Below are positions 13,901 to 57,747 of a stretch of 64,000 nt of DNA, piece after piece. The DNA lies in NCBI GenBank assembly GCA_020444175.1, contig JAHLLM010000013.1, forward strand, positions 62,001-126,000. The letters run 5' to 3'. The notes under the pieces were generated by a model. It did not search any database. It was given only the letters and a program-made list of their open reading frames with translations, and was not told the DNA's origin. Every line of letters starts with the position of its first letter. Position 1 is the first letter of the stretch. Position numbers and translations under genes: made by a program. This DNA is from Desulfobulbaceae bacterium. Lineage in GTDB: Bacteria; Desulfobacterota; Desulfobulbia; Desulfobulbales; SURF-16.

Positions 13901-16900
13901 AGTTGAGGTTACCGCCAATGACGGCAACGGAGGAACTGGAGCGCAGATTGTAAGTGTCACTGTTACCAACGCAAACGAAACTCCATCGCTCATCACTCTT
14001 TCGAACAATACCATTATTGAAAACACTGACACAACCACTCCTGTGTCTGTAGGCCTTTTAAGCACCACTGATGTTGATTCTGCTGATACCTTTACCTACT
14101 CTGTTTCTGGAGGTGCTGACGCAACTCAATTCTCAATCGGCGGCAGTGGATCAGACGAACTCATGATCAGTAATGGTATTCTGAACTATGAAGCAAAATC
14201 AAGCTATCAGGTCGTTGTGCGTACCACGGACGCTGGTGGCCTCTTTTATGATGAAACCTTTATAATCAGCGTGCTCGACACCAATGATGCACCGGTGATT
14301 ACCTCAAACGCAACCGGGGATGTGGTAGAGAATACGACCTCGGTTATGACGGTTACGGCAACTGATTCAGATTTCCCTTTGCAAACGGTATCATTTGCCT
14401 TAACAGGTGGCGTCGATGTGGCCCACTTTGCCATCAACAGCGTCAGCGGCCAATTATTCTTCCTCGCAGCACGTGACTATGAAGCTCCTGCTGATTTTGA
14501 CTCCAACAACATTTATGAAGTTGAAGTAAGCGCAGATGACGGAAACGGTGGCATCACTCCGCAACTCATAAGCGTGACAATCACGGATATCAACGAATCT
14601 CCCAGCCTTGTTTCAATCAGTGCCAGCAGCGTTACTGACCAGACTGACACCACAGGTGGTTTTTCTATTGGCACACTTACAACCACTGATGTCGACACTG
14701 GAGATACATTCAGCTATGCGGTGGTTGGCGGCGCTGACCAGGTTCATTTCTCAATTGGGGGCACATTCCTTGATAGGCTGTTTATCGATGACGGCATCCT
14801 GGATTTTGAGACCCAGTCCAGCTATGAAGTTGTTGTTCGAACTACCGATGCTGGTGCTTTGAGCCACGATGAAACTCTTACTATCACCATTATTGACAGT
14901 AATGACGCTCCGACAATTACCTCCAGCGCAACTGGAATCGTGGCTGAAAACACCACCTCTGTATTAACGGTAACAGCTACGGATGTAGATGTGCCTGCCC
15001 AGACCATTACGTTCTCCATAACCGGAGGAGATGATCAAGCCCTGTTTGCCATAGACGGGGCCAGCGGCGCCCTGTCCTTCCTTACAGCTCCTGATTATGA
15101 AATTCCCGGAGATGTTGACAGTAACAACATTTATCTTGTCCAGGTCACCGCTGATGACGGTAACGGCGGATCCGACATCCAAACAATTACGATAACGGTA
15201 ACCGATGACAATGATACGCCAACCATGGTCTCAATCAGCAACAATATTATTGCAGATCTGACAGACACAACAGGAGGTTTGTCAATCGGCTCTCTGACCA
15301 CCACTGATCAGGACCCTCTGGACACTTTTACCTATTCAGTGGCTGGCGGTGCAGACTTTGCAAACTTTGCCATTGGCGGAGCGGGCAATGAGCTTATCAT
15401 CACTGATGGTGTTATTGATTTTGAAACCAAATCCAGTTATGAGGTTGTGGTTCGAAGTACCGACTCAGGGTCTCTTTTCCATGACCAGACTTTCATCATC
15501 ACAGTTACCGATGTTAATGACGCTCCGGTTATTACCTCCGCTGCCACCGCCAATGTGGTTGAAAATACCACTGCAGTTCTTACCGTATCAGCCACTGACG
15601 CGGATCTTCCGGCCCAGACCATCTCGTTTACTATCAGCGGAGGTGCTGATCAGGGTCTATTTGCAATCAACAGCAGCAGCGGTGCCTTGTCTTTTGCAGT
15701 TGCTCCTGATTTTGAAGCCCCGTCAGACTTTGACGCAAACAATATTTATGAAGTCGAAGTTACGGCAAATGACGGAAATGGTGGAACGGGTTCCCAAACC
15801 ATCAATGTCACGGTCACCGACAGCAACGATGCTCCGGTCATTACCTCCAGTGCGGCACCAAGCGTAGCTGAAAATACCACTGCCGTATTGACCGTAACTG
15901 CCACGGATGCCGACGTGCCGGCCCAAACAATTACCTTCGCCATTACCGGTGGTGACGACCAAACCCTGTTTGCTCTTGACAGTGCCAGCGGTGCCCTGTC
16001 CTTTGTTGCGGCTCCTGACTTTGAGGCTGCTGGAGACCTGGATACCAACAACATCTATGTTGTTGAGGTCACGGCTCATGACGGCAACCTTGGTACGGAT
16101 ATCCAAACAATCAGCATTACAGTCACAGACGACAATGAAACGCCAACTCTAATTAGCATCAGCAACAGCACTGTTGTCGATCAGACTGACACCACAGGCG
16201 GCTCTGCAGTCGGAACCCTGACCACCACTGACATTGATACAGGTGATACCTTTAGCTATGCCGTCGTTGGCGGAGCGGACCTGGCTTATTTCTCAATTGG
16301 CGGAGCTCTTTCCGACGAACTGCTCATCGATAATGGTGTGCTTGATTTTGAGACCCAGGCCAGCTATGAGGTTATTGTCAGGACAACTGATTCAGGCGCG
16401 CTCAGCCATGATGAAACCTTTATCATCAGTGTCACTGATACCAACGATCCTCCGGTCTTCACCTCAAGCGCTACCCCAAGCGTGGCGGAGAATACCACTC
16501 CGGTTATAACGGTTACCTCGACAGATGCCGATCTTCCTGCCCAGAGCGTGACCTACAGCATAACAGGCGGAATCGACCAGGCACACTTCAATATTGACAG
16601 CGTTTCCGGAGCATTGGCCTTTGTGGCGGCTCCAAACTTCGAAGCACCGGCAGATGCCGACACCGACAATATCTACCTGGTGGAAGTGACTGCCGATGAC
16701 GGCAATACCGGCACAACAGTTCAGGCTCTCAGTGTGACGGTCTCGGATGCCAACGATGCTCCGCAGATAAACTCCAGTGCTACTCCAAACATGGAGGAGA
16801 ACAGCACTGCGGTTATAACAGTAACTGTCACGGACGAAGATGCCTCTGCCACTGCTACCTACAGTATAACCGGCGGTCTTGACCAGGCGTTGTTCAACAT

Positions 16901-19900
16901 AAATGGCAACAGCGGCGATTTGACTTTTATCTCTGCTCCTGATTTTGAGATTCCATCCGACACGGACACGAACAACGTTTATCAGGTTGAAGTGACTGCC
17001 GACGACGGCAACGGCGGCACTGATGCTCAAACCATCAGCGTTACAGTTACTGACGGCAACGATGCTCCGACACTGATTGCAATCAGCAACAGCGTTGTTA
17101 CAGATCTGGCTGACACCACAGGCGGAATGTCTGTGGGCACCCTTACATCCACCGACGTGGATGCTGGTGACAGCTTCAGCTACTCCGTGGTTGGCGGAGC
17201 CGACCTGGCGAATTTCTTCATTGGCGGCGCAGCTACTGACGAGCTGCTTCTTGACGACGGCGTACTCGATTTCGAAACCCAGGCCAGTTACGCGGTCATT
17301 GTTCGAACAACCGACACCGGTGGTCTTTCCCATGACCAACCCTTGACCATCACAGTTGTTGATGCCAATGATGCTCCGGTGATCACCTCCAGTGCGACTC
17401 CGGATATGGCTGAAAACACCACCGCAGTGCTGACGGTAACCGCCACGGATGCAGACCTTCCCCCTCAGACCATTACCTTTGCAATTAGCGGCGGAGACGA
17501 CCAGGCCATGTTTGCCATTGATGGCGCAAGCGGCGCCCTCTCCTTCCTTGCTGCCCCTGACTTTGAAACTCCAGGCGATATCGATGCCAACAACATCTAT
17601 CTTGTTGAAGTCACGGCTAATGACGGCAACCTCGGCACGCAGGTACAATTAATCAGTGTAAGCGTGACCGATGCCAATGATGCACCGGTGATCACCTCAT
17701 CCGCCAGCGCCGATGTAGCGGAAAATACCACAACGGTTATGACCGTGACTGCAACGGATGAAGACGTACCAGCCCAGACGGTCACCTTCTCCATCTCCGG
17801 TGGTGTTGACCAGTCCCTTTTCAGTATTAACGCCAGCACCGGCGTCTTGACCTTCATCAGTGCCCCTGATTATGAAATTCCTACTGACTTTGACGCCAAT
17901 AATGTCTATGAGGTTGCGGTTACGGCTGATGACGCAAATTCCGGCACCGTTACGCAGACAATAAATGTCACGGTGACCACTGCCAATGAAACTCCGAGCC
18001 TTATTTCAATCAGCAACAGTGCTCTTGCTGAAAATATTGACACAACGACTCCTGTTTCAGTCGGTACCCTGACGACCACTGATACTGACGCCGGTGACAC
18101 CTTCACCTATACTATTTCAGGTGGAACCGACCAGGCCAGATTCTCCATTGGCGGCGCTGCTTCCGATGAGCTTCTCATCAGCCATGGTGTGCTTAATTAT
18201 GAGGCGAAATCAAGCTATTCGGTCATTGTACGCACCACTGATGCAGGCGGTCTCTTCCATGATGAATCGTTTACCATCACTATCAACGATCTTAATGACG
18301 CACCTGTTATTACTTCTGCCAGTACCCGTAATGTAGCTGAGAACACAACCACAGTCACAACAGTTTCTGCCACGGATGAAGATTTACCGCCTCAAACAAT
18401 CACTTTTTCTTTAACAGGCGGAAATGATTTTGCCCTGTTTGCAATCAACAGCGGCAGCGGCCAACTGGCATTTCTCGCCTCACCCGACTTTGAGATTCCT
18501 TCCGACCTTGACAGCAATAATATTTATGAAGTTGAAGTCACGGCCAACGACGGCAGCGGCGGAGTTGATACACAACTTATAAATGTTACAGTAACAGATG
18601 CCAACGATGCGCCCGACCAGGTGACAATCAGCAGCAACTCGCTCAATGAGCTTACAGATACCACCGGCGGACTGTCTGTCGGCACCCTGACGACAATTGA
18701 CGTGGATGCTGTTGACAGCTTTACCTATACAGTGGTTGGCGGTGCCGATCAGATCCATTTTTCAATCGGCGGGCTATATCTTGACCAACTGATTATTGAT
18801 GATGGCGTGCTCGATTTTGAGAGCCAGTCAAGCTATGAGGTTATTGTCCGAACCACTGATTCAGGCTCACTCACCCATGATGAGACCTTGACGATTACCG
18901 TGCTTGATGTAAACGATGCCCCGACAATTACCTCACCTGCTTCGGCCAGTGTAACGGAAAACAGTACCGCTGTGATTACCGTCACTGCCAGTGATGTTGA
19001 CCTTCCGCTTCAGACCATAACCTTTTCCATCACTGGTGGCGCTGATCAGTCACTGTTTACCATTGACAGTGCCAGCGGAGCATTATCATTTGCTTCCGCG
19101 CCTGACTTTGAAATCCCAGGTGATGCTGACACCAACAATATCTATCAAATTGAAGTAACGGCAGATGACGGCACTGGCGGAACTGACGCCCAAACCATCA
19201 ATGTCACAGTAACTGATACCAACGATGCACCGACTCTCGTCACCCTCAGTAACAGCATCATTGATGAAAATATTAATACCGGTCTTGGCGTTTCCATAGG
19301 AACCCTGACCACGACGGATCAGGATGCCGCAGATACTTTCAGCTATTCGATAATCGGCGGAATCGATATGGCACTCTTCTCTGTTGCCGGAACAAATCTG
19401 GATGAGCTTATTCTCACTGATGGCGTGCTGAACTTTGAATTAAAAGCAAGCTATGATGTCATTATTCGCACCACTGATGCAGGTTCCCTGAGTCATGACC
19501 AGCCCCTGACCGTTATTGTCAATAATGTCAACGATGCCCCTGTGGGTACAGTGGCTATAAACGGCACGGTGGCCGAGGACCAGATTCTTACAGCAGACCC
19601 AAGCGGACTTGCGGACGAAGATGGCCTGGGTGTATTCAGCTACCAGTGGCAGCGCGACAGCGTGAACATTGCCGGCGCAACGGCCATTACCTATACTCTT
19701 GGTGACGACGATGTGGGAACAAGCATGACGGTTGTTGTCAGCTATGTGGATCTTGGCGGCACTGCGGAGAATGTAATTAGTTCCGCAACAATTCCTGTTG
19801 TCAATGTTAATGATCCGCCAGTGGGTAACGATGCGGCCGTCTCTCCGGTTGAAGACACCACATTTAATGGAACTTTGACAGCCACTGATATTGATAATCT

Positions 19901-22154
19901 TGCCGCTGATTTCATCTTTACCAGGGCAACCAATGCGACCCATGGTGAGGTTACGGTGAATGCGGACGGTACCTATCAGTATGTTCCGGAAGCTGATTAC
20001 GACGGAACGGATTCATTTACCTTCATGGTCAATGACGGTACGGACGACGCCCTGACCGTTGCCACTGTATCAATGACCCTGCAGCCTGTGAATGATGCAC
20101 CTATCGGTACCAGCGCGCCGTTCACTGTAGATGAGAATCAGGTCTTAAACGGAAATCTGACAGCAACGGACGTGGATAATGCCATAGGGGATCTCACTTT
20201 CCGGCTTGGCTCAGGCACCTTAAACGGTGTAACCATTGTTAATGCTGACGGCAGCTTCCAGTATACTCCGACACCGGCCTGGAACGGCACTGATTCATTT
20301 ACATTTATTGTCAACGACGGTACAGCGGATTCCCTTGAAGCAACTATAAACATTACGGTCCTTCCTGAAAATCATGCTCCCATTGCCAATGACCTTACTT
20401 TCTCCACTGATGTCGATGTTCCTTTTGGTGGGGTTTTAACTGGCAGCGATGTTGATGATGATCCGATCTTTTATTTCCTGGAGACAACCGGTACTCTCGG
20501 TACGGCAATCATTACCAGCGCGGACGGTCAGTTCTGGTACACTCCCAATCCGGGAGCTGTCGGTATCGACACCTTCACCTTTAAAGCCACCGACGGCTAC
20601 CTGGATTCGCAGACTGCCACGGTTACCGTTATCATAGGTGATGTCAACTCCGTTCCTGTTGCCCATGACGGCCTGCTTGACGTGGTCATGAATACCCCCA
20701 GCAGCGGTCGAATGCTGATGAGTGATTTTGATGCGGGCGATACACACACTTTCAGTATCGTTGCACCCGGCAACAAAGGTTTTATTGAAATTACCGATCC
20801 TTCAACCGGAGCGTATACATATACTCCATTTTCCTGGAACGTTGGCACCGACATTTTCACCTTCATAGTCAACGACGGCACAGATGATTCCAACATTGCC
20901 CAAGTTACAGTGACAATAGTTCCATCCGTTGACTCACACGTCACCCAGCTCATCAGCGCCTCGGAAACAGAACCGGGAACAGGAAGCAGCTTTAATCCCG
21001 CCCTCAGTGCCGACGGCAGCTATGTGGCCTTTTTATCCTACGCAACAAATCTCGTGGACGGCGTATCCGGTGGACAGGTGTATGTCTATGACCGGATGAA
21101 CAACGCCATGCACCTTGTCAGCAAATCCACTGCCGGTGATCCCGGCGACGGAACGAGCGACTATCCATCTATCAACAATGACGGACAGTTTATTGCTTAC
21201 TATTCATTTGCCTCCAATCTGGTACCCGGCGATACCAACGGCGTCAGGGACATCTTTGTCCATGACCGGGGAACCGGACTTACTGAAATGGTCAGTATCT
21301 CCACTGCAGGCGACCTGGCAGATGGTGACTCCTATTATCCGGCTATAACCAATGACGGTAACTTTGTGGCCTTTGACTCAAGCGCTACAAATCTCATGGC
21401 AAGTGACGCAAATGGAACGAGCTATGACATCTTTATTCATAACCGGCTGACAGACACCACGGAACTGGTCAGTCTTTCAACCGGAGGAGTCCAGTCGAAT
21501 CGCAACAGCAGAAAGCCATCCATAAGTTCGGACGGACGTTTTGTGGCCTTTGAATCACAGGCGACCAACCTGATTGATGGAATTGTCGGCCAGCAGATTT
21601 ATGTCCGGGATCGCCAGTCAGGCACACTCACTCAGGTCAGCGTATCCAGTGCAGGCACCAGTGGAAACGGCTCCAGCCAGAATGCCTCTATAAGCGCTGA
21701 CGGGCGTTTTGTAGTCTTTCAATCAACAAGTTCCAATCTTGTAGCGGATGATACAAATGGCGTAACCGACATTTTTGTCCATGACAGACTGACAGGCAAT
21801 ACAGAGCGGGTGAGCGTTTCAACGACTGGAGGACAAACTAACGATCACAGTTATTGCTATTTCCAGAACTCTATCAGTGCTGACGGACAGTATATTGTCT
21901 TCCACTCCTCAGCATCAAATCTTGTTGGTGATACAAATGCTGTAAATGATATATTTGTCCATGACAGATCCACGGGAGTAACCCGCAGAATCAGCTCCTC
22001 AAGTCTGGGCACCCAAAGTGATAACCAGAGCTGGTGGCCTTCTATCAGTGCTGACGGGCTCATTAAATCATTTAGTTCAAGTGCAACAAATCTTGTTGAT
22101 AATGATGCCAACGGGGCCTGGGATGTCTTTTTAATACATCCGGTTGGCAATTAG
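4929..22154 (+). CDS. Giant secreted cadherin-repeat adhesin (5,741 aa) with C-terminal TolB-like propeller
   Basis: One uninterrupted frame encodes a protein of roughly 590 kDa. A signal peptide (IGFFIYSLTAVASALA) is followed by about 47 cadherin-like domains of about 100 residues with the calcium motifs TDxDxGD, DFE and D-x-N-D-A-P. I count 25 of one type (A: SxSNSxxDxTDTxxGxSVGTLTTTD) and 22 of another (B: VITSxxxxxVxENTTAVLTVTATD). Domains 1-10 are all type A; after that A and B alternate or occur as A-B-B. Residues about 4860-5335 hold one Ig-like domain (YQWQRD) and four VCBS/tandem-95-like domains. Residues about 5336-5741 form seven repeats of DGxFVAFxSxATNLVxxDTNGxxDIFVHDRxTG, a TolB/PD40-like seven-bladed propeller. 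No LPXTG, PEP-CTERM or RTX nonapeptide block was seen, so anchoring is unknown. A role in adhesion or biofilm is inferred. The start follows GGGGAGTGGAGA. Confidence 0.93.
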   Translation: MSKNKRTTTSQLFVRLIGFFIYSLTAVASALAAPPTDISISTGTVDEHIDTSSGVSIGILTTTDPDTGDTFTYTIQGGADSVNFSIGGTASDELIIIDGILDFENKASYEVIVRTTDSTSATFDKTLNITVNDLNDAPSLVSITNSTLDELTDTSSGLSVGTLTTTDTDAGDTFTYSIAGGTDSASFSIGGAGSDELIITDGILDFETQSTYEVIVRSTDSGALFHDQTINITVNDLNDAPSLVSITNSTLDELTDTSSGLSVGTLTTTDTDAGDSFTYSIAGGTDSASFSIGGVGFDELIITDGILDFEAQSTYEVIVRSTDSGSLFHDQTINITVNDLNDAPSLVSISNSILDELTDTSSGVSVGTLTTTDTDAGDTFTYTITGGADSASFSIGGAGFDELIITDGILDFEAQSTYEVIVRSTDSGSLFHDQTINITVNDLNDAPSLVSITNSTLDELTDTSSGLSIGTLTTTDTDAGETFTYSIAGGIDSASFSIGGAGFDELIITDGILDFEAQSTYEVIVRSTDSGSLFHDQTINITVNDLNDAPSLVSISNSILDELTDTSSGVSVGTLTTTDTDAGDTFTYTITGGADSASFSIGGAGFDELIITDGILDFEAQATYEVIVRSTDSGSLFHDQTFNITVNDLNDAPSLVSISNSTLDELTDSSSGLSVGTLTTTDTDAGETFTYSIAGGTDSASFSIGGVGSDELIITDGILDFETQSTYEVIVRSTDSGSLFHDQTINITVNDLNDAPSLVSISNSTLDELTDTSSGLSVGTLTTTDTDAGDTFTYSIAGGTDSASFSIGGAGSDELIITDGILDFEAQATYEVIVRSTDSGSLFHDQTFNITVNDLNDAPSLVSITNSTLDELTDTSSGLSVGTLSTTDTDAGDTFTYTIAGGADSASFSIGGAGFDELIITDGILDFESQSTYEVIVRSTDSGSLFHDQTINITVNDLNDAPSLVSISNSTLDELTDTSSGVSVGTLTTTDTDVGDTFTYSIAGGTDSASFSIGGAGFDELIITDGILDFEAQATYEVIVRSTDSGALFHEQTINITVNDLNDAPVITSAASSSVIENNTTVLTVTATDVDLAQTISFSVSGGVDQGAFTINSVTGELSFSSAPDFESPADTNSDNIYEVEVTADDGNGGTDVQTITVSVTGINESTPTQVLISNSTIDEQTDTSAGFSIGTLSTTDSDVGDSFTYTVAGGTDQSFFTIGGSGADELIISAGVLNFESKSTYQVIVRSTDSGSLFYDEILTISVNDLNDAPIITTFSSQSVVENNTAVVTVVASDEDTGSIVTFSLSGGTDQSRFVINSTSGQLVFLSAPDFEVPFDFDFNNIYQVEVTADDGNGGIDTKSINVTVNDINEAPKLISISSSTVADQTDTSGGISIGSLSTDDEDAGDTFTYTISGGVDQGNFTIGGSSSDELIFDAGVVDFETKSSYEVSVRATDAGLLTHDQTLVISVIDANDAPVITSGTSANVAENSTAVMTVTATDVDVPVQTITYAVTGGVDQAAFTIDAASGALSFASAPDFEIPADSDSNNIYIIEVTADDGNGGTVLQTISVTVTDINEIPTLVSLSNSSIADQVNTTGGLSIGTLTTTDVDAGDTFTYSVVGGADLAYFSIGGGASNELFIDAGVIDFETKPSYEVVVRTTDSGTLFHDQTFTLTVTDVNDAPVITSSSTASVVENATAVLTVTATDADLPSQTITFAISGGADQSHFAINGSNGTLTFAPAPDFEAPADSDANNIYEVEVTASDGNGGTDVQTVSVTVTDDNDAPVITSSAVSSMAENTTAVLTVTATDADLPAQTITFAITGGDDQPLFTIDGASGALSFIAAPDFEAPADLDANNVYLVQVTANDGNLGTDVQTISVTVTDENEAPTLIALSNSSILDQTDTTGGYAIGTLTTTDIDAGDTFSYSVVGGTDQALFVIGGALLDELIIDNGVLDFETQLSYEVVVRTSDSGALTHDETLIISVSDTNDPPVFTSNAAPIVAENTTAIVTVSATDADLPAQTVTYSISGGEDQSLFSIDSASGVLAFVAAPNFETPTDADTNNIYLVEVTADDGNTGTTIQSLSITVTDANDAPIINSNLTPAIEENSTAISTVTVADEDVASTASFTISGGADQLLFNIDNLSGALSFVSAPDFEAPTDADTNNIYIVEVTADDGNGGTDVQTVNVTVTDGNDAPTLISISNSAVTDLTDTTGGFSIGILSTTDVDAGDSFTYSVVGGADQANFSISGAGSNELFIDDGVLDFETKSTYAVIVRSNDAGALFHDQTLTITVVDANDAPIITSSASPSITENTTAVLTVTATDADLPPQAITFSITGGDDQALFTIDGTSGALSFIAAPDFETPGDSDTNNVYLVAVTADDGNTGTNVQLISVTVADDNEAPTLISISNSTLTDQTDTNGGYAVGTLTTTDIDAGETFTYSIAGGIDSDYFSIGGAGSNELFIDNGIVDFETKSSYEVIVRTTDSGTLTHDETFIISVSDTNDPPVFTSTTTPSMAENTTAVITVTTTDADLPAQTVTYSISGGVDQSLFSIDNLSGALAFVAAPNFEAPADADTNNIYLIEVTADDGNTGTTIQSLSITVTDANDAPVINSNLAPAIEENSTAISTVTVADEDIASSATFSITGGADQLLFNIDNLSGALSFVSAPDFEVPTDADTNNIYLVEVTADDGNGGTDVQTINVTVTDGNDAPTLVSISNSAVADLAETTGGFSVGTLTTTDVDAGDSFTYSVVGGADQLNFAIGGALSDELLLDDGVLDFETKPSYEVIVRATDGGGLTYDQPLTITVVDANDAPVITSSAVSSVEENTTAVLAVTATDADLPAQTLTFSISGGDDQTLFAIDGTSGALSFIAAPDFEAPGDLDANNVYLVQVTADDGNLGTDVQLITVTITDTNDAPVITSTATAIVVENTTTVLTITSTDEDQPTQTVTYSLTGGADQSFFSINSSSGALSFIAAPDFEVLADFDGNNIYEVEVTANDGNGGTGAQIVSVTVTNANETPSLITLSNNTIIENTDTTTPVSVGLLSTTDVDSADTFTYSVSGGADATQFSIGGSGSDELMISNGILNYEAKSSYQVVVRTTDAGGLFYDETFIISVLDTNDAPVITSNATGDVVENTTSVMTVTATDSDFPLQTVSFALTGGVDVAHFAINSVSGQLFFLAARDYEAPADFDSNNIYEVEVSADDGNGGITPQLISVTITDINESPSLVSISASSVTDQTDTTGGFSIGTLTTTDVDTGDTFSYAVVGGADQVHFSIGGTFLDRLFIDDGILDFETQSSYEVVVRTTDAGALSHDETLTITIIDSNDAPTITSSATGIVAENTTSVLTVTATDVDVPAQTITFSITGGDDQALFAIDGASGALSFLTAPDYEIPGDVDSNNIYLVQVTADDGNGGSDIQTITITVTDDNDTPTMVSISNNIIADLTDTTGGLSIGSLTTTDQDPLDTFTYSVAGGADFANFAIGGAGNELIITDGVIDFETKSSYEVVVRSTDSGSLFHDQTFIITVTDVNDAPVITSAATANVVENTTAVLTVSATDADLPAQTISFTISGGADQGLFAINSSSGALSFAVAPDFEAPSDFDANNIYEVEVTANDGNGGTGSQTINVTVTDSNDAPVITSSAAPSVAENTTAVLTVTATDADVPAQTITFAITGGDDQTLFALDSASGALSFVAAPDFEAAGDLDTNNIYVVEVTAHDGNLGTDIQTISITVTDDNETPTLISISNSTVVDQTDTTGGSAVGTLTTTDIDTGDTFSYAVVGGADLAYFSIGGALSDELLIDNGVLDFETQASYEVIVRTTDSGALSHDETFIISVTDTNDPPVFTSSATPSVAENTTPVITVTSTDADLPAQSVTYSITGGIDQAHFNIDSVSGALAFVAAPNFEAPADADTDNIYLVEVTADDGNTGTTVQALSVTVSDANDAPQINSSATPNMEENSTAVITVTVTDEDASATATYSITGGLDQALFNINGNSGDLTFISAPDFEIPSDTDTNNVYQVEVTADDGNGGTDAQTISVTVTDGNDAPTLIAISNSVVTDLADTTGGMSVGTLTSTDVDAGDSFSYSVVGGADLANFFIGGAATDELLLDDGVLDFETQASYAVIVRTTDTGGLSHDQPLTITVVDANDAPVITSSATPDMAENTTAVLTVTATDADLPPQTITFAISGGDDQAMFAIDGASGALSFLAAPDFETPGDIDANNIYLVEVTANDGNLGTQVQLISVSVTDANDAPVITSSASADVAENTTTVMTVTATDEDVPAQTVTFSISGGVDQSLFSINASTGVLTFISAPDYEIPTDFDANNVYEVAVTADDANSGTVTQTINVTVTTANETPSLISISNSALAENIDTTTPVSVGTLTTTDTDAGDTFTYTISGGTDQARFSIGGAASDELLISHGVLNYEAKSSYSVIVRTTDAGGLFHDESFTITINDLNDAPVITSASTRNVAENTTTVTTVSATDEDLPPQTITFSLTGGNDFALFAINSGSGQLAFLASPDFEIPSDLDSNNIYEVEVTANDGSGGVDTQLINVTVTDANDAPDQVTISSNSLNELTDTTGGLSVGTLTTIDVDAVDSFTYTVVGGADQIHFSIGGLYLDQLIIDDGVLDFESQSSYEVIVRTTDSGSLTHDETLTITVLDVNDAPTITSPASASVTENSTAVITVTASDVDLPLQTITFSITGGADQSLFTIDSASGALSFASAPDFEIPGDADTNNIYQIEVTADDGTGGTDAQTINVTVTDTNDAPTLVTLSNSIIDENINTGLGVSIGTLTTTDQDAADTFSYSIIGGIDMALFSVAGTNLDELILTDGVLNFELKASYDVIIRTTDAGSLSHDQPLTVIVNNVNDAPVGTVAINGTVAEDQILTADPSGLADEDGLGVFSYQWQRDSVNIAGATAITYTLGDDDVGTSMTVVVSYVDLGGTAENVISSATIPVVNVNDPPVGNDAAVSPVEDTTFNGTLTATDIDNLAADFIFTRATNATHGEVTVNADGTYQYVPEADYDGTDSFTFMVNDGTDDALTVATVSMTLQPVNDAPIGTSAPFTVDENQVLNGNLTATDVDNAIGDLTFRLGSGTLNGVTIVNADGSFQYTPTPAWNGTDSFTFIVNDGTADSLEATINITVLPENHAPIANDLTFSTDVDVPFGGVLTGSDVDDDPIFYFLETTGTLGTAIITSADGQFWYTPNPGAVGIDTFTFKATDGYLDSQTATVTVIIGDVNSVPVAHDGLLDVVMNTPSSGRMLMSDFDAGDTHTFSIVAPGNKGFIEITDPSTGAYTYTPFSWNVGTDIFTFIVNDGTDDSNIAQVTVTIVPSVDSHVTQLISASETEPGTGSSFNPALSADGSYVAFLSYATNLVDGVSGGQVYVYDRMNNAMHLVSKSTAGDPGDGTSDYPSINNDGQFIAYYSFASNLVPGDTNGVRDIFVHDRGTGLTEMVSISTAGDLADGDSYYPAITNDGNFVAFDSSATNLMASDANGTSYDIFIHNRLTDTTELVSLSTGGVQSNRNSRKPSISSDGRFVAFESQATNLIDGIVGQQIYVRDRQSGTLTQVSVSSAGTSGNGSSQNASISADGRFVVFQSTSSNLVADDTNGVTDIFVHDRLTGNTERVSVSTTGGQTNDHSYCYFQNSISADGQYIVFHSSASNLVGDTNAVNDIFVHDRSTGVTRRISSSSLGTQSDNQSWWPSISADGLIKSFSSSATNLVDNDANGAWDVFLIHPVGN
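5340..8120 (+). repeat. Nine tandem 309-bp near-identical units inside the giant gene
   Basis: Type A cadherin units 2-10 repeat with an exact 309-bp (103-codon) period from about 5340 to 8120. Whole stretches, such as the part coding SASFSIGGAGFDELIITDGI, are almost the same at DNA level in every unit, including synonymous positions. Individual units pair off: units 4 and 6 share the SISNSILDELTDTSSGVSVG variant. Such homogeneity means recent duplication or gene conversion, and repeat number can be expected to vary between strains. Confidence 0.92.
10590..13673 (+). repeat. Two 1,542-bp higher-order repeats (A-B-B-A-B) inside the giant gene
   Basis: The domain series beginning LIALSNSSILDQ (near 10593) and the one beginning LISISNSTLTDQ (near 12135) are both A-B-B-A-B blocks. 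Matching DNA positions in them are offset by 1,542 bp, for example GATGCCGACCTGCCCGCCCA at 10971 and 12513. The second B of each block has the rare NSNLxPAIEENSTAI sequence. A five-domain block of 514 residues therefore seems to have been duplicated as one piece. Confidence 0.8.
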
Positions 22155-50300: not shown

Positions 50301-51494
50301 TCATGAGGTGGTACTGTTCTCATAGCGCCCTCTTTTATTTTTTTGCTTTTGTTGATACATTAAACTGTCAGCTTTGTGTATTAACTCAGCTGCAGAACAA
50401 GGTGAATCTGGAGAATATAAAGCTAGCCCACAACTCAACGATAATTTATAAAGAGCACTACTTTCTTCGTTCCATTTTGTTACGTTGGCTTCTATGCGTG
50501 CATGTATTGTTGCAGAGTCAGCTGTATCATTTATTTGAGTTGCTAAAATGGCAAATTCATCGCCACCTATACGTCCAATCGCATTATTATCAAAACGACC
50601 GACGATATCAGCGTTTCGAAATGTTTTATTTAAAATTTTTGCCATCTCTTTGAGAGCTTCATCTCCCACTTCATGACCAAACTTATCATTTATCTGCTTA
50701 AAATCATTAAGGTCTGCAAAAATTAAAAAAACTGACTTATTGCCCCGATTAATGATTTTAAGTTGCTGCTCTAATTGTATCAAAAAACCCCTTCTATTAA
50801 GTAAACCCGTTAATTCATCAAGAGTCGACAGCTCTTTGAATTTTTGCTTTGACCTCTTCAACTCTGACATATTTCTATGAGCAAGATACGAGCTGAAAAT
50901 TCCTCCTGCTAAAAGCAATAGAATGATAGGTCCCATAATTTTTTGTTCATTATGCTTAAGCTCCTCAAGGGATTCTTTTATTTTCGTGATGTCGTAGTAA
51001 ATTTCAAAAGCGCCAATTGGAATGTCTTGATGTTTTATTGGAATGTACGTTTCTATAAAATAATTTTGTTTATTATAAAACCCCTTCTCTTCATTGAACT
51101 CCTTAAAGTCAATATGGCTTCTCATTTTATTGTCTTTGAACATTTCTGGGAAAAATTCTTTCCTGGTCAGGTTTCCTACATCTTCTGGATCCGTTGAATA
51201 TACAATGATTCCATCAGGTGTAAAAATTTTCACTTTCCATAATCCATTCGTTTTCATTGTATGTTCTACATCATTTAGAAAATCTTTTGGCAATGGAGTG
51301 TCAAGGTTTATAGGTCGTGTAATCTGGTTATGCGCTACCATATTGTGACCAATTTTTTTCAATATTTCTTCAGCATGAAAAATTAAAAATGAATTGTATG
51401 CAGGGAACAAAATGTATTTAGAATAGAAGGGTAACAAAAAGACTATAATGATTGAAACGATGGTTATGATATTGAGTATTCTATGTCTGAACAT
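50301..51494 (-). CDS. Membrane-bound GGDEF diguanylate cyclase with periplasmic sensor
   Basis: A 397-residue protein with an N-terminal membrane helix (IITIVSIIIVFLLPFYSKYI), a periplasmic region of about 150 residues (including VKIFTPDGIIVYSTDPEDVG and YFIETYIPIKHQDIPIGAFE, as in Cache-like sensors) and a second membrane helix (IMGPIILLLLAGGIFSSYLA). The C-terminal GGDEF domain has LDELTGLLNRRGF, FADLNDFKQINDKFGHEVGD and RIGGDEFAIL. All catalytic residues appear intact, so it probably makes c-di-GMP in response to an extracytoplasmic signal. It is a single gene. Confidence 0.92.
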   Translation of the reverse strand: MFRHRILNIITIVSIIIVFLLPFYSKYILFPAYNSFLIFHAEEILKKIGHNMVAHNQITRPINLDTPLPKDFLNDVEHTMKTNGLWKVKIFTPDGIIVYSTDPEDVGNLTRKEFFPEMFKDNKMRSHIDFKEFNEEKGFYNKQNYFIETYIPIKHQDIPIGAFEIYYDITKIKESLEELKHNEQKIMGPIILLLLAGGIFSSYLAHRNMSELKRSKQKFKELSTLDELTGLLNRRGFLIQLEQQLKIINRGNKSVFLIFADLNDFKQINDKFGHEVGDEALKEMAKILNKTFRNADIVGRFDNNAIGRIGGDEFAILATQINDTADSATIHARIEANVTKWNEESSALYKLSLSCGLALYSPDSPCSAAELIHKADSLMYQQKQKNKRGRYENSTTS

Positions 51495-51933
51495 TTTTAT
51501 TTATTTGCTGGGGTATAATTTTAACAGGAAAATGAGAAAAAGTTAGGGTAACCCCCATTTCAAGAAAGCTTAAAAAGCAAAATTTCAAAATAACCGTATG
51601 AACAAACAGTCGAACTTTTGTCTCATCGAATCCTCCTTTTTTTCAATTTTTGCAAGTGATTCATCAAGAACAGTAATCTCGATAAATAAGCGATAAAATA
51701 TCTTAATAAGGCTATCACAAAATACGCTGGGCGTAAAACTGAAATTTATCCAGGTGATCAGGGGCAGAGGCCGGTCAACAGATAAAGATATCCACTGGCG
51801 CTCTCAAGCTAGAGAGAACAAAAGGCAACTTAATATGTTTACTGAGAGGTTCAAATTTTTTTAGGGAGATAGTTGGACTATCACCAAGCTCTATTGACTT
51901 TTGGGATGAATTCTGACTTGAGGCAATATCCTG
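51495..51933. other. Intergenic region with dispersed repeat, no gene seen
   Basis: About 440 AT-rich bases. The right part holds the dispersed palindromic repeat (51842-51910). A CTCTCAAGCTAGAGAG stem lies near 51801-51816. No gene is supported. Confidence 0.45.
51842..51910. repeat. Dispersed palindromic repeat, copy 2 (longest)
   Basis: CTGAGAGGTTCAAATTTTTT, TAGGGAGATAGTTGGACTAT, CACCAAGCTCTATTGACTTT and TGGGATG form the most complete copy. The second half resembles CCCCAAGATATGTTGACTTT at 52617-52636. Confidence 0.55.
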
Positions 51934-52209
51934 TTAGTAAACTTCATCGTGAGAACCAATGTTAACCAAGATTATTTCCTGCTCGGAAATCACCATTTCG
52001 AGAGTAATACGATAACTAATATTGATTGAAACGCTGTGCAGACCAGTCAATTTGCCTTTGAGAGGATGTAGGCGCAACGAAGAATGGTGGGGATTGATCT
52101 CCAAAAGCTCAAGAGTCTTGCTGTATTGATTAAGTAGATCAGGGTGTCGTTTGATGAATTTGCGGGCTCTCCTGATATAGCTTTCCGGATAGATAAGCTT
52201 ATAGGCCAT
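51934..52209 (-). CDS. RelE/YafQ-like toxin
   Basis: The 91-residue product has the helical hairpin IRRARKFIKRHPDLLNQYSK, then LRLHPLKGKLTGLHSVSINI and SYRITLEMVISEQEIILVNI, ending GSHDEVY. This is the RelE/YafQ fold with the conserved HPLKG and SYR segments. It probably cleaves mRNA on the ribosome. Its start overlaps the antitoxin's end by 11 bases, so translation is coupled. Confidence 0.85.
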   Translation of the reverse strand: MAYKLIYPESYIRRARKFIKRHPDLLNQYSKTLELLEINPHHSSLRLHPLKGKLTGLHSVSINISYRITLEMVISEQEIILVNIGSHDEVY

Positions 52210-52456
52210 TGGTAAGCCTTTTTATATGGTCGGCCACACTTTCGGTTACTACCCTGCCGGCCTCAATATCTTCACGTACCTCTAGTAATGCGGCCTCCAA
52301 TTCGCACTCCCGAAGATACTGGTACTGCTCGATATCCATCACCACATAGCGCTTTTTCCCTCTAACAGTGATAACAGCTTCCGGCGCCTCGGCGAGTTGT
52401 TCGCTTATAGACGCCACCCCTCTTGTCTTCAGATCGTTCGCAGCAATAGTGCCCAT
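52199..52456 (-). CDS. Phd/YefM-type antitoxin
   Basis: The 85-residue protein begins TIAANDLKTRGVASISEQL and has the antitoxin core AVITVRGKKRYVVMDIEQYQYL, which is typical of Phd/YefM DNA-binding domains. Its tail (EDIEAGRVVTESVADHIKRL) would wrap the toxin. It is the first gene of the pair, with AGGAGG upstream (52470 area). Confidence 0.87.
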   Translation of the reverse strand: MGTIAANDLKTRGVASISEQLAEAPEAVITVRGKKRYVVMDIEQYQYLRECELEAALLEVREDIEAGRVVTESVADHIKRLTNGL

Positions 52457-52856
52457 AAAGTCCTCCTTGCAGAATTTCTAATAGTACTATTGTAAGCACC
52501 ATTGTTGATACTGTAAAGAGAAAATTAAAAGACGGTCAATAGTGTTTTTCAGTGAAACTGGTTATTATTGGGGAACAGAGTGACTTTTGATTTTCCTATT
52601 TGACCAAAGGAGATGTCCCCAAGATATGTTGACTTTGGGAATCAGAGATTCATAGTAGACAGATCAACCTGGGGTAAATTGATAAATTCATGAGGTTTGA
52701 TGTGGCTATGTTAACGTTTGAGATTGCCAACCAGTTGGCTACCAAGTTCAAACGGCTAAAATTGTTAAAGCCAACTCAAGAGAACGCGCATGCTCGCAAT
52801 TCGGGTTGATTGATTTGTTGGCTTATGGATGCACGAAAGCACCCATAAGCACTCTT
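52457..52856. other. Intergenic region with repeat fragment and hairpin
   Basis: About 400 bases without a gene. It contains CCCCAAGATATGTTGACTTT (52617-52636, dispersed repeat fragment), a GCCAACCAGTTGGC palindrome near 52728-52741 and a hairpin at about 52822-52851 (GCTTATGG-A-TGC with GCACCCATAAGC) that may terminate the Slam transcript. Confidence 0.45.
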
Positions 52857-54173
52857 TTAGAAAGATGCTTCTATAAAAAGTGATATTTGATCTCGGTCAT
52901 ATTTATACATTTCAAGATTACTATCATTGTCGGTATGAGATGCTGATAAAACCAAATTAGAATGGATTGCATTCAGAGGATACATAAGATCTATTCCAAC
53001 TCTACTTGTTTTGTCATGTCTCTCTTTATCATAGGCTGCTTCTTTACCCTCGTATTCTGTGTCAGAGTATGAACCGCTTATTGTTGTTTGAAGTCCCCAT
53101 CGAAAAGTATAGCCATACATTATATTTCCACCAAGAAGGTCATTGGTGTAGAAATCATAGCCAGACTTTTCTTTACCTGCAACTAAACCAAATCTCATAA
53201 AACTCATTTGATTTATTTGAAAAATAAGCATAGGTGAAATTGAATATCGGTCTAAATCTCGCTTGCTATCTGTAGTTTGGTATTTCCGTTTACCTATAGT
53301 TCCTCCGAGGTTAAAGGAGAGCTTGGGGGAATAACTATAACGAATTTGAGGAGCAACACCGTAAGAGTAGGAATAGTACGATTTGTCATGGCCAGTTTTG
53401 ACCCAATCAACAACTATAGGTAATGATCCGCTCCAGTCATCAGAGATGCGCATGGATAGACCTGTAGATGCGGAAGCTACACGGGAGTCTAGATCGTTAT
53501 AGTTATTGTAACTTGTACTGTTCAACGTCAGGCTTGACTGCCAGCTTATGTCGTCTGTAATGCCACGCATATAATCACCGCTAGCACGAAGAAGGATGGC
53601 ACTTCCACTGTGTTTCTGAGCTTCACCAGAAAGGGTGAATGGCAGGTCGTACATTAATACAGAATCAATAGATGGGCCTGCATTGGCATTTGAATCATAC
53701 ATATAGCCTAGAGAGCCTCTTAACCGCCATTGGCGTGGTGCCCCCTCGGATTCCATGAATTGCATAAAGTTGTCAATATTGTCACCAACTTTAGGTGGTG
53801 GCTGATGGGTTTTAACTTCTGTAAGGAGTTTCTTTGAATTTTCTACATGACCTAATGAGAAGGAGATTTGTGCCAGTTCTAAGCGGGCACGATCAGAACG
53901 GCTTGGGTCTAACTCAATACTCTTTTGTAGATATGTTGATGCCTCGCGTGGACGACCTGTTGCTTTAGCAACTATTCCCATGAGGAACCACTCTTGAGGG
54001 TTGGTTGATGTCGATTCATGGTCAATCATGATATATTTATATGCATCCTTTGCGTTGCCTTGTTCAAGTAGTGCCTGTACGACTTGAAGGGTGCTGTCAT
54101 CATTACTGGCCATGGTTAAGGATGGTGCAAGAAGAAGGCTAAATAGGGCTATATTTCGAATTGATTTTTTCAT
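52857..54173 (-). CDS. Slam-like outer-membrane translocon (type XI secretion)
   Basis: The 438-residue protein has a signal peptide (IALFSLLLAPSLTMA then SND), TPR-like helices in residues 25-135 (EWFLMGIVAKATGRPREAST, RARLELAQISFSLGHVENSK) and a C-terminal beta-barrel of alternating residues. The barrel begins with WRLRGSLGYMYDSNANAG, the DSN-x-N segment typical of DUF560/Slam, and ends in SLFIEASF with a terminal Phe, as expected for Bam-inserted barrels. Slam proteins move TbpB-like lipoproteins and soluble haem carriers across the outer membrane. Twelve bases upstream on the same strand is a gene whose product ends in a TbpB-type barrel, its likely cargo. Confidence 0.82.
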   Translation of the reverse strand: MKKSIRNIALFSLLLAPSLTMASNDDSTLQVVQALLEQGNAKDAYKYIMIDHESTSTNPQEWFLMGIVAKATGRPREASTYLQKSIELDPSRSDRARLELAQISFSLGHVENSKKLLTEVKTHQPPPKVGDNIDNFMQFMESEGAPRQWRLRGSLGYMYDSNANAGPSIDSVLMYDLPFTLSGEAQKHSGSAILLRASGDYMRGITDDISWQSSLTLNSTSYNNYNDLDSRVASASTGLSMRISDDWSGSLPIVVDWVKTGHDKSYYSYSYGVAPQIRYSYSPKLSFNLGGTIGKRKYQTTDSKRDLDRYSISPMLIFQINQMSFMRFGLVAGKEKSGYDFYTNDLLGGNIMYGYTFRWGLQTTISGSYSDTEYEGKEAAYDKERHDKTSRVGIDLMYPLNAIHSNLVLSASHTDNDSNLEMYKYDRDQISLFIEASF

Positions 54174-54185
54174 TGTTTTGATTCC

Positions 54186-56768
54186 TTATTGTTTTTTGGC
54201 ACGAAAAACACCGACTGCTCTTTCATCACCATTATTACCTGTGCCTTTTGTAATAGCCCACACTCCACCAGTTTCAGCAGCTGACTTTCCTCCAAAATCT
54301 CCATGTATTTGTGAATGCCATGTTTCAGTGTTAGATATTCCAGCTCCAACTAATTGACCACCAAATCCAGAGTCCCCAATGCTTCCATTGCTGATGGAAG
54401 CAGTACCCCAAGTAGCCCCAGTCGATGCATTTTTCACGGTGAGATTCCCTGAAATTACACCTGAACCAAAATCTGCATTAAGATTAATATTACCATTTAC
54501 AGCATTGTACCCAGTTTGCCCAAGTGTCCATTGCCCACCGGCCAGTTTACCTTGATATGTTGCAGACCCCTGTTTGGGCATTTCTACGTCTGGCGTTTGG
54601 TCTGTGACAACCCAGTGAGAAGTATATATTTTGTTTGTTGCATTCGGATCAGACCACGTTCCCCATGCTGTATATGAATAATTGCCAAAATAGGCAGCTT
54701 CACTTTCAGATAGAATTCTGGTTCGTTCATCTCCGGTACCATCACCACTCGGGTGCAGGTATAAGGTAGAACCGTTTCCAGGCTTTATTTCTTTTGTTTC
54801 TGCTGGACCATCACCATATCCAAAGAAATATAGATCTCCTAAGTTTTCATTGTAATAAACTCTCGTGTAACCGCCTGTCCATTCTGAAGTAGTCGTAGTA
54901 GGAGTAGGGTTTTGCTCTGCTGCTAAGATGACATTGTAGTCATCGTTAGCTGCGTCAGTAAGATTCATTGTGATAAAATCTATATCATGTTTCTGGATTT
55001 GATATTCCGTGTTTTCATTTCGCTTAGGTATGATAGCCTGCTCAAGGCGAGAAATTCTTTCTCTCAATTGCGCTATGTGTGTGATATTTGTGGCTGATGT
55101 TTTACGGTCTTTTGAGATATCCAAATACCTTCTGTAGGTATCATCATATAGGGAGTAGCTATTAGTAAAAAGGTAACGCCATTCCCTGCCACTCCCAAGT
55201 GTGTTTTTTGCGAGCATAATTAGTTTTTGCATGTCTTCCGGCCTAATATCACTAATATTTCCGTTGTACTTCTTGTTCAAAAATTTGGCTTGAAAATAGA
55301 ATGTCTTTAGCGATTTGAGACGATGATATTCAGCTTCATTAAAGCTACCTGTTTGCGCTTCTAGCTTTATTAGTTCCTCTTTTTTATTTTGAAGTTGAGA
55401 GTTTAAGGCGTTTAAAGATCTATTGCTACTTGCAAGATTGCTGGCAATAATCAGTTGCTCTTTTGCTTTAGCATCAAGTTCAGCTTGGGTGGGTTTGATG
55501 TTCTGGTTTACTAGTGTGATTGATTCTACTTCTTCTGAATCTTCTTCATTCCCAGTCATGTATATAATATCTGTCGTTTTTTCATAGTATACATCTGTTT
55601 TTGCTGGTGTAAAAAATTTAATCTCACCTACTTCTTCAGGGAATGCCATGTCTATCAACGGTGCTAATTTATGTGATTCGATAACCGAATATAAAGGGCC
55701 ATATAAAGAGGAAACAACAGGAGAAACAAACCAACTATCAATGGTAGTTGTTGTACCAGGTGTAGTGTTTATTGTAAAATCTGGTTGTCCAAGGAGCTGA
55801 TTTGTTTTTACTCCAAGTAATCTTGTATATCCAAGAATATCAGAGGATATTGATACGGGGTCTAAAAGAGATCTGATATTGGAAATATTTTTTTGCTCTG
55901 AACTATGGAGAAGTCTATTTCTTCCACTTTCGCCCAATGCATGGAAGCCTCTTTCCGATAAAGTAATTGGCGCCGCATTAATGGTAACTGTTTTAAAACC
56001 AGATTTCAATCCAGCATAACTCGCCAATCCACCACCCAATGAGTGTCCTGTAATTTCAATATTATTCCTTTTAGCGGACTCTTCATTTTGACCAGATATT
56101 TTATCTATGTAATTAAGTGCTTCTACATATTGAGTAGAATAACTATCAGTAAACGGAATACTTAAAAGATCCTGATACAAATCATTAACAACCCCTTCTC
56201 CAGCAAAGGTACCTCCATAAACAACAATTATTTTACCTGTTTCTAAATCTTTAAAAGTACCTGCTGTAAAACCAGATCCTTTATTGTCTGTGTAATCTAA
56301 AATTTCATAGTTCCTGTCTTCATGAACAACCACTCGCCCTTTTGGGTTTTCAATATCTGATAACCCATATATATCATTAGACAATAATATGTATTCTTTA
56401 TTCTCTTCAGCAACAATTATATCCCCACCACTCCAGCCTGGAATTTCAGGTAATTCGGCAACACGCCTTTCGACTTCAGCAAGAACTTTTCCAATTTCTG
56501 CTTTGTTGGTCGTTAAATCAATTTCTACATTTTCTTCTGGCAGTAATTGACCCGACCCTGTTTTCTCCTCTGCAGTTCTTCCGAAATCACTATTGAGTAT
56601 TGCACTTTTCAAACTTTCTATAGAAGCTTTTGGGTAAATATACTCACTATTAACTACAGGAAGAGTTTGACCTGCTCCTGTTTTCGCTTCTCCGGCAAAT
56701 GCATTTCCAAAAATACCGCTAGTTGATAACAGTATCATCCCTGCAATTTGATAATTCATTCTTTCCAT
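54186..56768 (-). CDS. Lipase-like Slam cargo with C-terminal TbpB-type beta-barrel
   Basis: The 860-residue protein has an SPase I signal peptide (LLSTSGIFGNAFA, no lipobox Cys), so it should be soluble when released. Two short repeats (KTGAGQTLP near 29 and KTGSGQLLP near 69) follow. Residues 115-375 form an alpha/beta-hydrolase of the class 3 lipase type with Ser243 in ITGHSLGGG, Asp303 in SLLDPVS and His366 in ESHKLAPLID as the probable triad. Residues 425-490 are coiled coil. The last 130 residues (from about 740; WTLGQTGYNAVNGNINLNAD, FGGKSAAETGGVWAITKG, AVGVFRAKKQ) match the TbpB-like handle barrel recognised by Slam. The start follows TGGAGA. The substrate, lipid or otherwise, is not known. 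Confidence 0.78.
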   Translation of the reverse strand: MERMNYQIAGMILLSTSGIFGNAFAGEAKTGAGQTLPVVNSEYIYPKASIESLKSAILNSDFGRTAEEKTGSGQLLPEENVEIDLTTNKAEIGKVLAEVERRVAELPEIPGWSGGDIIVAEENKEYILLSNDIYGLSDIENPKGRVVVHEDRNYEILDYTDNKGSGFTAGTFKDLETGKIIVVYGGTFAGEGVVNDLYQDLLSIPFTDSYSTQYVEALNYIDKISGQNEESAKRNNIEITGHSLGGGLASYAGLKSGFKTVTINAAPITLSERGFHALGESGRNRLLHSSEQKNISNIRSLLDPVSISSDILGYTRLLGVKTNQLLGQPDFTINTTPGTTTTIDSWFVSPVVSSLYGPLYSVIESHKLAPLIDMAFPEEVGEIKFFTPAKTDVYYEKTTDIIYMTGNEEDSEEVESITLVNQNIKPTQAELDAKAKEQLIIASNLASSNRSLNALNSQLQNKKEELIKLEAQTGSFNEAEYHRLKSLKTFYFQAKFLNKKYNGNISDIRPEDMQKLIMLAKNTLGSGREWRYLFTNSYSLYDDTYRRYLDISKDRKTSATNITHIAQLRERISRLEQAIIPKRNENTEYQIQKHDIDFITMNLTDAANDDYNVILAAEQNPTPTTTTSEWTGGYTRVYYNENLGDLYFFGYGDGPAETKEIKPGNGSTLYLHPSGDGTGDERTRILSESEAAYFGNYSYTAWGTWSDPNATNKIYTSHWVVTDQTPDVEMPKQGSATYQGKLAGGQWTLGQTGYNAVNGNINLNADFGSGVISGNLTVKNASTGATWGTASISNGSIGDSGFGGQLVGAGISNTETWHSQIHGDFGGKSAAETGGVWAITKGTGNNGDERAVGVFRAKKQ

Positions 56769-57050
56769 TATTTTCTCCAGTTAGTAAATTATATTAGCTT
56801 GTTGCCTAGTATCCTCACACAAACTATCATTACATTGCTTTTTAATCTATCAAAACAATAGCATAATGATCCAATGCCAATCTCAATCATTTAAGTAAAA
56901 CAGCAAGTTGAGACTATTCCTGAGAAGTCCAAATGTTAGGGAGATAGTGTGACTTTGGAAATTAAATCTGTGCCCATTTTTACGTGGCCAAACGAAAAAA
57001 CATCATTACGCGTAACGTGAAGCTTTTTGCCGATCCGTTGAAAGCTGTTG
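56769..57050. other. Leader of the Slam cargo operon with dispersed repeat
   Basis: About 280 bases upstream of the cargo gene, between it and an attC site. It contains the dispersed repeat (56920-56958), AT-rich promoter-like sequence on the minus strand, and a GTTGAAA-GCTGTTG-TTTCAAC stem (57037-57057) that partly overlaps the end of attC. No gene is seen. Confidence 0.4.
56920..56958. repeat. Dispersed palindromic repeat, copy 3
   Basis: CTGAGAAGTCCAAATGTTAG followed by GGAGATAGTGTGACTTTGG, closely matching copy 1 in the first half. Confidence 0.6.
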
Positions 57051-57111
57051 TTTCAACCACCGGATAAGATTGTGGTTCGTTCTTCACACAATCTATCCTT
57101 ATTCGTTCGGC
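57051..57111 (-). mobile_element. attC-like integron recombination site downstream of the PEP-CTERM gene
   Basis: Read on the minus strand, the site runs GCCGAAC (R''), GAATAAGG, ATAGATTGTG, a 12-base loop, CACAATCTTATCC and GTTGAAA (R'). The inner arms pair perfectly apart from one extra T, like the extrahelical bases of real attC sites. The R boxes deviate slightly from RYYYAAC / GTTRRRY. It starts 10 bases after the stop codon of the PEP-CTERM gene and has the same layout and length as the site at 58093-58155. Confidence 0.65.
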
Positions 57112-57120
57112 AATTTTTTA

Positions 57121-57747
57121 TTATTTCTTTTTTCTTCTTAATCCTATGAGACCAGCAAGACAGGAACCCAATAACCAAACTGTACCGGGAATAGGAACAG
57201 CTGAAGTCTTATTCCATACAGCCCAGACAATATCGTCTGTTTCTGGTGAATATTCTAGTGGAGATGTGTCAGATGTCCTAAAAATACTACCAGCTGCAAA
57301 AATAACATCTTTATACCCTGCTTTCTTATTACAAACACCCACAACTCCCATCCCACCAGCAGAGTTTACAACCATGGGTGTATATACATAGCAACTCCCT
57401 AATGAAGCACAGCCATTTGTCAGATTTGGGGCAGAGTCAAATGCCCCTAATGGTGAATCAATAAAAACCTGATCAAGCAATGCTTGGTTTGCTATAACCG
57501 CCAAACTACTATCACTGAGATTTAATAGGTTGGTAAATGGAAAATCCGTATTCTCATCTGCCCCTTCGTATAATTCTATAGGCGTGCCATCTCGAAATGC
57601 GACATCATACAAAACACCATCTACATCAACGCCTGCTGCACCAAAAAGCTGTCCGTTTCTAATGTCCAAGATAGCGGCATGTGAAATGTTAACCACAAAT
57701 AACAAACCTAAGCCTATTGCCAGGGCTGTTGTAAATTTCTTCTTCAT
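57121..57747 (-). CDS. PEP-CTERM (VPxP-type) sorting-domain protein, probable gene cassette
   Basis: The 208-residue protein has a signal peptide (TALAIGLGLLFVVNISHA) and a C-terminal sorting signal: VPIPGTVWLLGSCLAGLIGL followed by RRKKK. This is the PEP-CTERM/VPLPA-CTERM type recognised by exosortase, so it should go to the cell envelope or extracellular polysaccharide. Two Cys residues in LTNGCASLGSCYVYTP may form a disulfide. The middle has no recognised domain. No exosortase gene is in the window. AGGAG precedes ATG 57747. The gene lies between two attC-like sites in the right orientation and is therefore probably an integron cassette of about 1.05 kb. Confidence 0.82.
   Translation of the reverse strand: MKKKFTTALAIGLGLLFVVNISHAAILDIRNGQLFGAAGVDVDGVLYDVAFRDGTPIELYEGADENTDFPFTNLLNLSDSSLAVIANQALLDQVFIDSPLGAFDSAPNLTNGCASLGSCYVYTPMVVNSAGGMGVVGVCNKKAGYKDVIFAAGSIFRTSDTSPLEYSPETDDIVWAVWNKTSAVPIPGTVWLLGSCLAGLIGLRRKKK

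Follow-up and report, generated by a model that had tools for sequence, protein, structure and literature searches.

A putative type XI secretion unit with a lipase-like cargo in a Desulfobulbaceae genome

Can a secretion pathway that is known mainly for proteins binding metal or haem also export an enzyme? This question is raised by two neighbouring genes in a 64,000-nucleotide stretch of a Desulfobulbaceae bacterium genome (contig JAHLLM010000013.1, positions 62,001 to 126,000; the whole stretch is called the window below). One gene encodes a protein resembling the Slam translocons of the type XI pathway, and the other an 860-aa protein, the presumed cargo, which combines a lipase-like N-terminal part with a C-terminal barrel of the TbpB type. 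With good confidence, we regard the pair as a genuine type XI unit in which the effector has been swapped and the cargo is soluble and probably enzymatic; its export, release, catalysis and substrate we infer from sequence, predicted structure and analogy.

The translocon and its presumed cargo

The SlipAM/DUF560 profile (PF04575) was matched by the translocon from its first to its last position (1-288 of 288, E = 2.4e-16, 60.6 bits against a cut-off of 22), and tetratricopeptide repeat (TPR) models were matched at about residues 59-125, with TPR_19 and TPR_14 at or slightly above their cut-offs. These matches support a Slam/DUF560-type translocon with a predicted role in export. The cargo gene lies upstream of the Slam gene, and a Shine-Dalgarno (SD)-like TAAGGA overlaps its stop codon. 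The preliminary description, which was made from the sequence alone, had placed a Slam-like translocon (TPR plus DUF560, terminal Phe) 12 bases from the 860-aa gene, and the profiles and open reading frames (ORFs) agree with it. Profile searches of the entire 5.4-Mb genome returned two matches for PF01298 and three for PF04575 at E<=1, so the adjacency of the two families here is not expected by chance. Scans for promoters and terminators gave signals no stronger than those in shuffled sequences.

The C-terminus of the cargo matched TbpB_B_D (PF01298) at residues 730-859 (31.1 bits, cut-off 26). The two halves of the protein (residues 1-420 and 421-860) were modelled separately with AlphaFold2 (AF2). 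In the second half, eight consecutive strands were obtained at residues 735-859, mostly with a predicted local distance difference test score (pLDDT) >85, preceded by shorter strands and long helices (the latter partly at pLDDT 70-89). Strands at residues 700-722 (pLDDT about 67-97) and 636-671 (<50) are candidates for the pedestal or handle. When the barrel model was searched against the PDB with Foldseek, all 40 matches at E<=0.001 were TbpB, LbpB, NHBA, HpuA or PmSLP, with E = 5e-9 for TbpB. An alignment of the C-termini of cargo from 14 loci revealed the common motifs TWG.W, WIAG..TP, G.FFGP.A...GG and G.FGG.R, and a profile made from the barrel alignment matched TbpB (E = 4e-17), LbpB, NHBA, fHbp, HpuA and haemophilin in the PDB, which are nearly all known Slam-type cargo. 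The TbpB-like barrel that had been read from the C-terminal residues was thus recovered by profile, by fold comparison and by the structure prediction proposed as its check, and the region is presumed to be the Slam-recognition domain.

Reading by eye suggests a signal peptidase I (SPase I)-type signal peptide without a lipobox, as described before. Because the whole cargo, like the translocon, contains no Cys, it cannot be lipid-anchored. The lipidated family NF041636 (Slam-dependent surface lipoprotein) was considered and rejected (42.3 bits against a cut-off of 80, Cys absent).

In the N-terminal part, the cargo matched the SA1320 lipase family of NCBIfam besides the Mbeg1-like family, whose score is weighed below; Lipase_3 stayed below threshold (17.6 bits, cut-off 22). 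The core of the domain (residues 121-260) was modelled mostly at pLDDT 68-91, in Foldseek the lipase model was closest to class-3 lipases (E = 3e-4), among them the enzyme of Rhizomucor miehei, and a profile of this part matched the type VI secretion system (T6SS) lipase effector 7ubz (E = 5e-11). These results support a class-3/Mbeg1-type lipase fold with conserved Ser and His, for which catalysis is predicted. The triad proposed earlier, Ser243/Asp303/His366, was found at the residues named, and alignment added that Ser and His are invariant, while the acid can only be called likely. Asp303 lies 60 residues C-terminal to Ser243 within a DPV motif, and NIRSLLDPVS at this spacing is what we take to be the class-3 arrangement. 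Asp303 is therefore likely the catalytic acid and the least certain residue of the triad. It was preferred over Asp344 for its spacing and motif; MAFFT places Asp344 in the VDGE column of the relatives, but the Glu itself aligns with Trp346.

Table 1. Positions in the window and supporting evidence for the two genes and their predicted domains and residues.
Feature	Position	Strand	Basis
Translocon gene, 438 aa	52857..54173	-	PF04575 SlipAM and TPR matches; 37% full-length identity to Nitrincola Slam
SlipAM/DUF560 membrane barrel, aa 149-438, terminal Phe	52860..53729	-	PF04575 1-288/288
Periplasmic TPR domain, aa 25-145	53739..54101	-	TPR_2, TPR_8 and TPR_19 matches; TPR_Slam weak
Lipase-barrel cargo gene, 860 aa, zero Cys	54186..56768	-	ORF and profile matches
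TbpB-type region: eight-stranded barrel aa 730-859, preceded by candidate pedestal strands aa 697-729	54192..54680	-	PF01298, AF2, Foldseek, profile
Helical, coiled-coil-like spacer, about aa 428-606	54951..55487	-	AF2 of aa 421-860
Class-3/Mbeg1-type lipase domain, about aa 121-380	55629..56408	-	PF11187 above cut-off; 7ubz profile match; Foldseek
Catalytic His366 (predicted)	55671..55673	-	Invariant in 10 aligned lipases
Asp303 in NIRSLLDPVS, probably the catalytic acid	55860..55862	-	DPV motif and spacing
Nucleophile Ser243 in GHSLGG (predicted)	56040..56042	-	Invariant in 10 aligned lipases
Predicted SPase I signal peptide, about aa 1-25, ...GNAFA/GEA, without lipobox	56694..56768	-	Judged by eye

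Pairing and exchange of effectors across genomes

Is the pairing of translocon and barrel repeated elsewhere? The survey covered 97 relatives, 395 genomes of the phylum, 258 of the order, 369 gammaproteobacterial genomes, plasmids and phages (~1,000 genomes profiled). TbpB_B_D was detected in 15 and SlipAM in 35 of the phylum genomes, and TbpB_B_D in 36 of the order genomes. Slam was encoded within 1.5 kb and on the same strand for 42 of the 53 classified barrel proteins of Desulfobacterota, and seven of the remaining 11 were truncated by contig ends. The distance matrices of Slam and barrel were also correlated over 18 pairs (r = 0.856, reached by 0 of 2000 shuffles), although the P-value is optimistic because the shuffles ignore relatedness. 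The search for the gene pair in other genomes, proposed in the preliminary description, therefore had a divided outcome: Slam/barrel pairs recur, but the lipase fusion was found in no other genome searched. Similarly, no lipase neighbours were found at the other SlipAM loci of the phylum.

The window protein groups in the Slam tree with those of Nitrincola alkalisediminis (98/94) and a Campylobacterota metagenome-assembled genome (MAG; 96/96). The other Slam of the source genome, with which it shares only 24% identity, does not group with it. A scan of 84,980 species genomes for the whole cargo, run with poor peptide patterns, found nothing; Nitrincola and other relatives came from a genome scan with the barrel profile. 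The cargo of Nitrincola carries a VWA domain where the window cargo has the lipase, that of the Campylobacterota MAG carries a FecR domain, and in a genome of the same order a cargo with a long helical N-terminus accompanies a Slam that is 35% identical. Because the related pairs carry VWA, FecR and helical parts, the chassis of Slam and barrel appears to be conserved while the N-terminal effector is exchanged. VWA-TbpB-barrel proteins adjoin Slam in Nitrincola (L113:5076-8468) and in a Deltaproteobacterium MAG (L038:152-3454). In Alphaproteobacteria, a cargo beside Slam (L117:6803-9205, L125:7053-8828) has an S74 endosialidase-type intramolecular chaperone domain after the TbpB barrel. Since VWA, FecR and S74-chaperone architectures also adjoin Slam genes, the lipase would be one of several non-iron effectors, and the earlier statement that most known cargo bind metal or haem understates the spread of the system outside hosts.

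The FecR type forms a recurrent trio in the order, with a constant gene order of Slam upstream, FecR-TbpB-barrel cargo and CHASE2-guanylate cyclase downstream, in ~30 genomes including the source genome (loci L039, L041, L043-L050, L179-L210). Among 40 FecR-barrel proteins, Slam lies within 1.5 kb of 35 and the cyclase of 33. The trio looks like a surface-exposed sensor coupled to cyclic-nucleotide signalling and could prove of greater consequence than the lipase cargo; a literature search found no paper combining DUF560 and FecR. The source genome holds this as its second type XI unit (Slam, FecR cargo with C-terminal TbpB barrel, CHASE2-guanylate cyclase; L034:1-2421 on contig C87 and L035:7881-11509 on C59), split over two contig ends within a (DPTVPT)n repeat. 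Some FecR cargo are very long (1171-2128 aa; L192:3395-9553, L191:4208-7723, L180:1506-7892), and two of these hold 2 or 3 TbpB barrels per chain. At L044:6873-8626, Slam, FecR and barrel matches in one frame together with a frameshift mark a decayed type XI remnant.

Proposed route and competing explanations

For TbpB, the route consists of Sec export, periplasmic transit in an unfolded state held by Skp, and translocation by Slam (PMC9090332). The window cargo would likewise carry a Sec/SPase I signal and reach the periplasm unfolded, where, by analogy with TbpB, Skp would hold it and the partner Slam would recognise its C-terminal eight-stranded barrel. The lipase part would be passed to the cell exterior, and the mature cargo would be released or loosely held at the surface, as with haemophilins; since it has no anchor, it would be a soluble surface or extracellular protein, in the manner of TbpBBDsol proteins (PMC8406197). 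Outside the cell, the lipase/esterase domain, through Ser243, His366 and probably Asp303, would cleave extracellular lipid or ester.

Several results, besides the optimistic P-value given above, weigh against this proposal. The Mbeg1-like match (PF11187, residues 164-254) exceeds its cut-off by a tiny margin (21.5 bits against 21.1), and the AF2 model of residues 1-420 is of low overall quality, with a mean pLDDT of 48. In the relatives, the acid is a Glu located 78-95 residues past Ser, a position unlike that of Asp303. A second lipase-barrel fusion is absent from all the genome sets, plasmids and phages surveyed, and selection on a singleton is not measurable. The acid placed unlike that of the relatives and the marginal Mbeg1 score would also suit a secreted but non-catalytic protein, in which the lipase fold serves as a pseudo-lipase binding lipid or another ligand, like the classic binding-type cargo of the pathway. 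We consider this quite unlikely, since GHSLGGGLA and His366 are fully kept and Asp303 stands at normal spacing in a class-3-like DPV motif, features that a pseudo-enzyme could lose without cost. An active lipase with an identical export route might instead serve to attack neighbouring bacteria, either from the surface or after release. Among solved structures, a T6SS effector is the closest by profile, and in related genomes Mbeg1-like lipases occur in tandem arrays, alternating with lipoprotein-like genes that are possible immunity proteins (L052, L053). In these arrays the lipoprotein-like genes encode about 200-255 aa and RTX proteins are adjacent; they resemble effector-immunity arrays. 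The relatives also resemble ordinary secreted lipases, one neighbour bearing RTX repeats, and no immunity-like gene was found beside the unit among the window ORFs, for which reason we prefer nutrient lipolysis and judge an antibacterial use unlikely, if worth bearing in mind.

The origin of the pair bears on a further explanation. GC content at third codon positions (GC3) is 0.26 in the cargo gene and 0.33 in the Slam gene, against 0.47-0.51 for the window's core genes and about 0.5 for housekeeping genes, and an integrase and an insertion sequence (IS) transposase lie 3-9 kb from the pair. From the low GC3 and the nearby integrase, horizontal acquisition of the gene pair is likely. The stretch of low GC3 extends over positions 50301-57747 of the window and contains a GGDEF protein, Slam, the cargo and a PEP-CTERM protein beside the integrase and IS transposase, probably as a genomic island. 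Elsewhere, the window encodes a giant protein of 5741 aa (4929-22154) with cadherin-like repeats and, C-terminally, WD40/TolB-like repeats. The compositional signals, the singleton status of the fusion and the grouping of its Slam with Nitrincola rather than with the other Slam of the source genome would all fit a recently acquired chimera, unexpressed or non-functional and only passing through. Such a chimera seems improbable to us because both reading frames are open throughout and have SD-like sites, the key residues are intact, and the long cargo has no stops. That the two genes are chance neighbours, an unrelated TPR-porin (e.g., for polysaccharide export) and a protein with a generic beta domain, is hardly credible: some SlipAM-like proteins of the phylum do sit in polysaccharide loci without TbpB-type cargo, but here SlipAM is matched over its full length, the fold matches are specific to Slam cargo, the pairing is repeated, and Slam and barrel diverge in parallel. 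The reading of the pair as a type XI unit with a secreted, probably active lipase is the one we retain.

Known systems and the meaning of the pair

The TXISS-1B haemophilin type (PMC8406197) is similar in that a Slam-family outer-membrane protein stands beside an unanchored cargo with one C-terminal TbpB-type barrel and an SPase I-type signal, which in the window cargo was read by eye. It differs in having a haem-binding handle, whereas the window cargo has a lipase domain and a helical spacer, and in belonging to host-associated Proteobacteria instead of free-living Desulfobacterota. Among the pairs found, that of Nitrincola has the closest Slam (37%) and the closest barrel (40-42%), but it differs in its VWA effector and its gene order (Slam, then cargo). 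The pair from the same order (L178) shares the order of cargo before Slam (Slam 35% over its full length, barrel 32%), but has the long helical N-terminus and no lipase. Mbeg1-like/SA1320-type class-3 lipases, including the T6SS effector 7ubz/9cys, share the GHSLGGGLA nucleophile elbow, the His and the alpha/beta core, but lack the TbpB barrel and the Slam neighbour and place the acid differently. In autotransported lipases and esterases (type Va, EstA-type), an outer-membrane barrel also delivers a lipase to the cell surface; there, enzyme and membrane barrel form one chain, whereas in the window Slam is a separate protein and the barrel of the cargo is a soluble eight-stranded domain.

A 2025 survey predicted 2,556 cluster 1 cargo in about ten architectures, none of which its text calls a lipase or hydrolase (PMC12282271), and lipases are unmentioned in the texts of the 2017, 2021 and 2025 cargo surveys. 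The type XI pathway itself is known; an enzymatic, non-lipidated cargo in Desulfobacterota, as predicted from sequence, is probably new. We are somewhat inclined to think that in Desulfobacterota and a few Proteobacteria the pathway is a general platform with swappable effectors (lipase, VWA, FecR-CHASE2), not one dedicated to the capture of host iron or haem. The gene pair suggests that the type XI pathway exports enzymes besides iron- and haem-binding proteins. If this is true, Slam would be able to translocate a large catalytic domain whose folding has to take place outside the cell, an enzyme cargo would give a measurable readout for the translocon in a field that currently uses surface labelling, and the barrel could act as a portable export tag.

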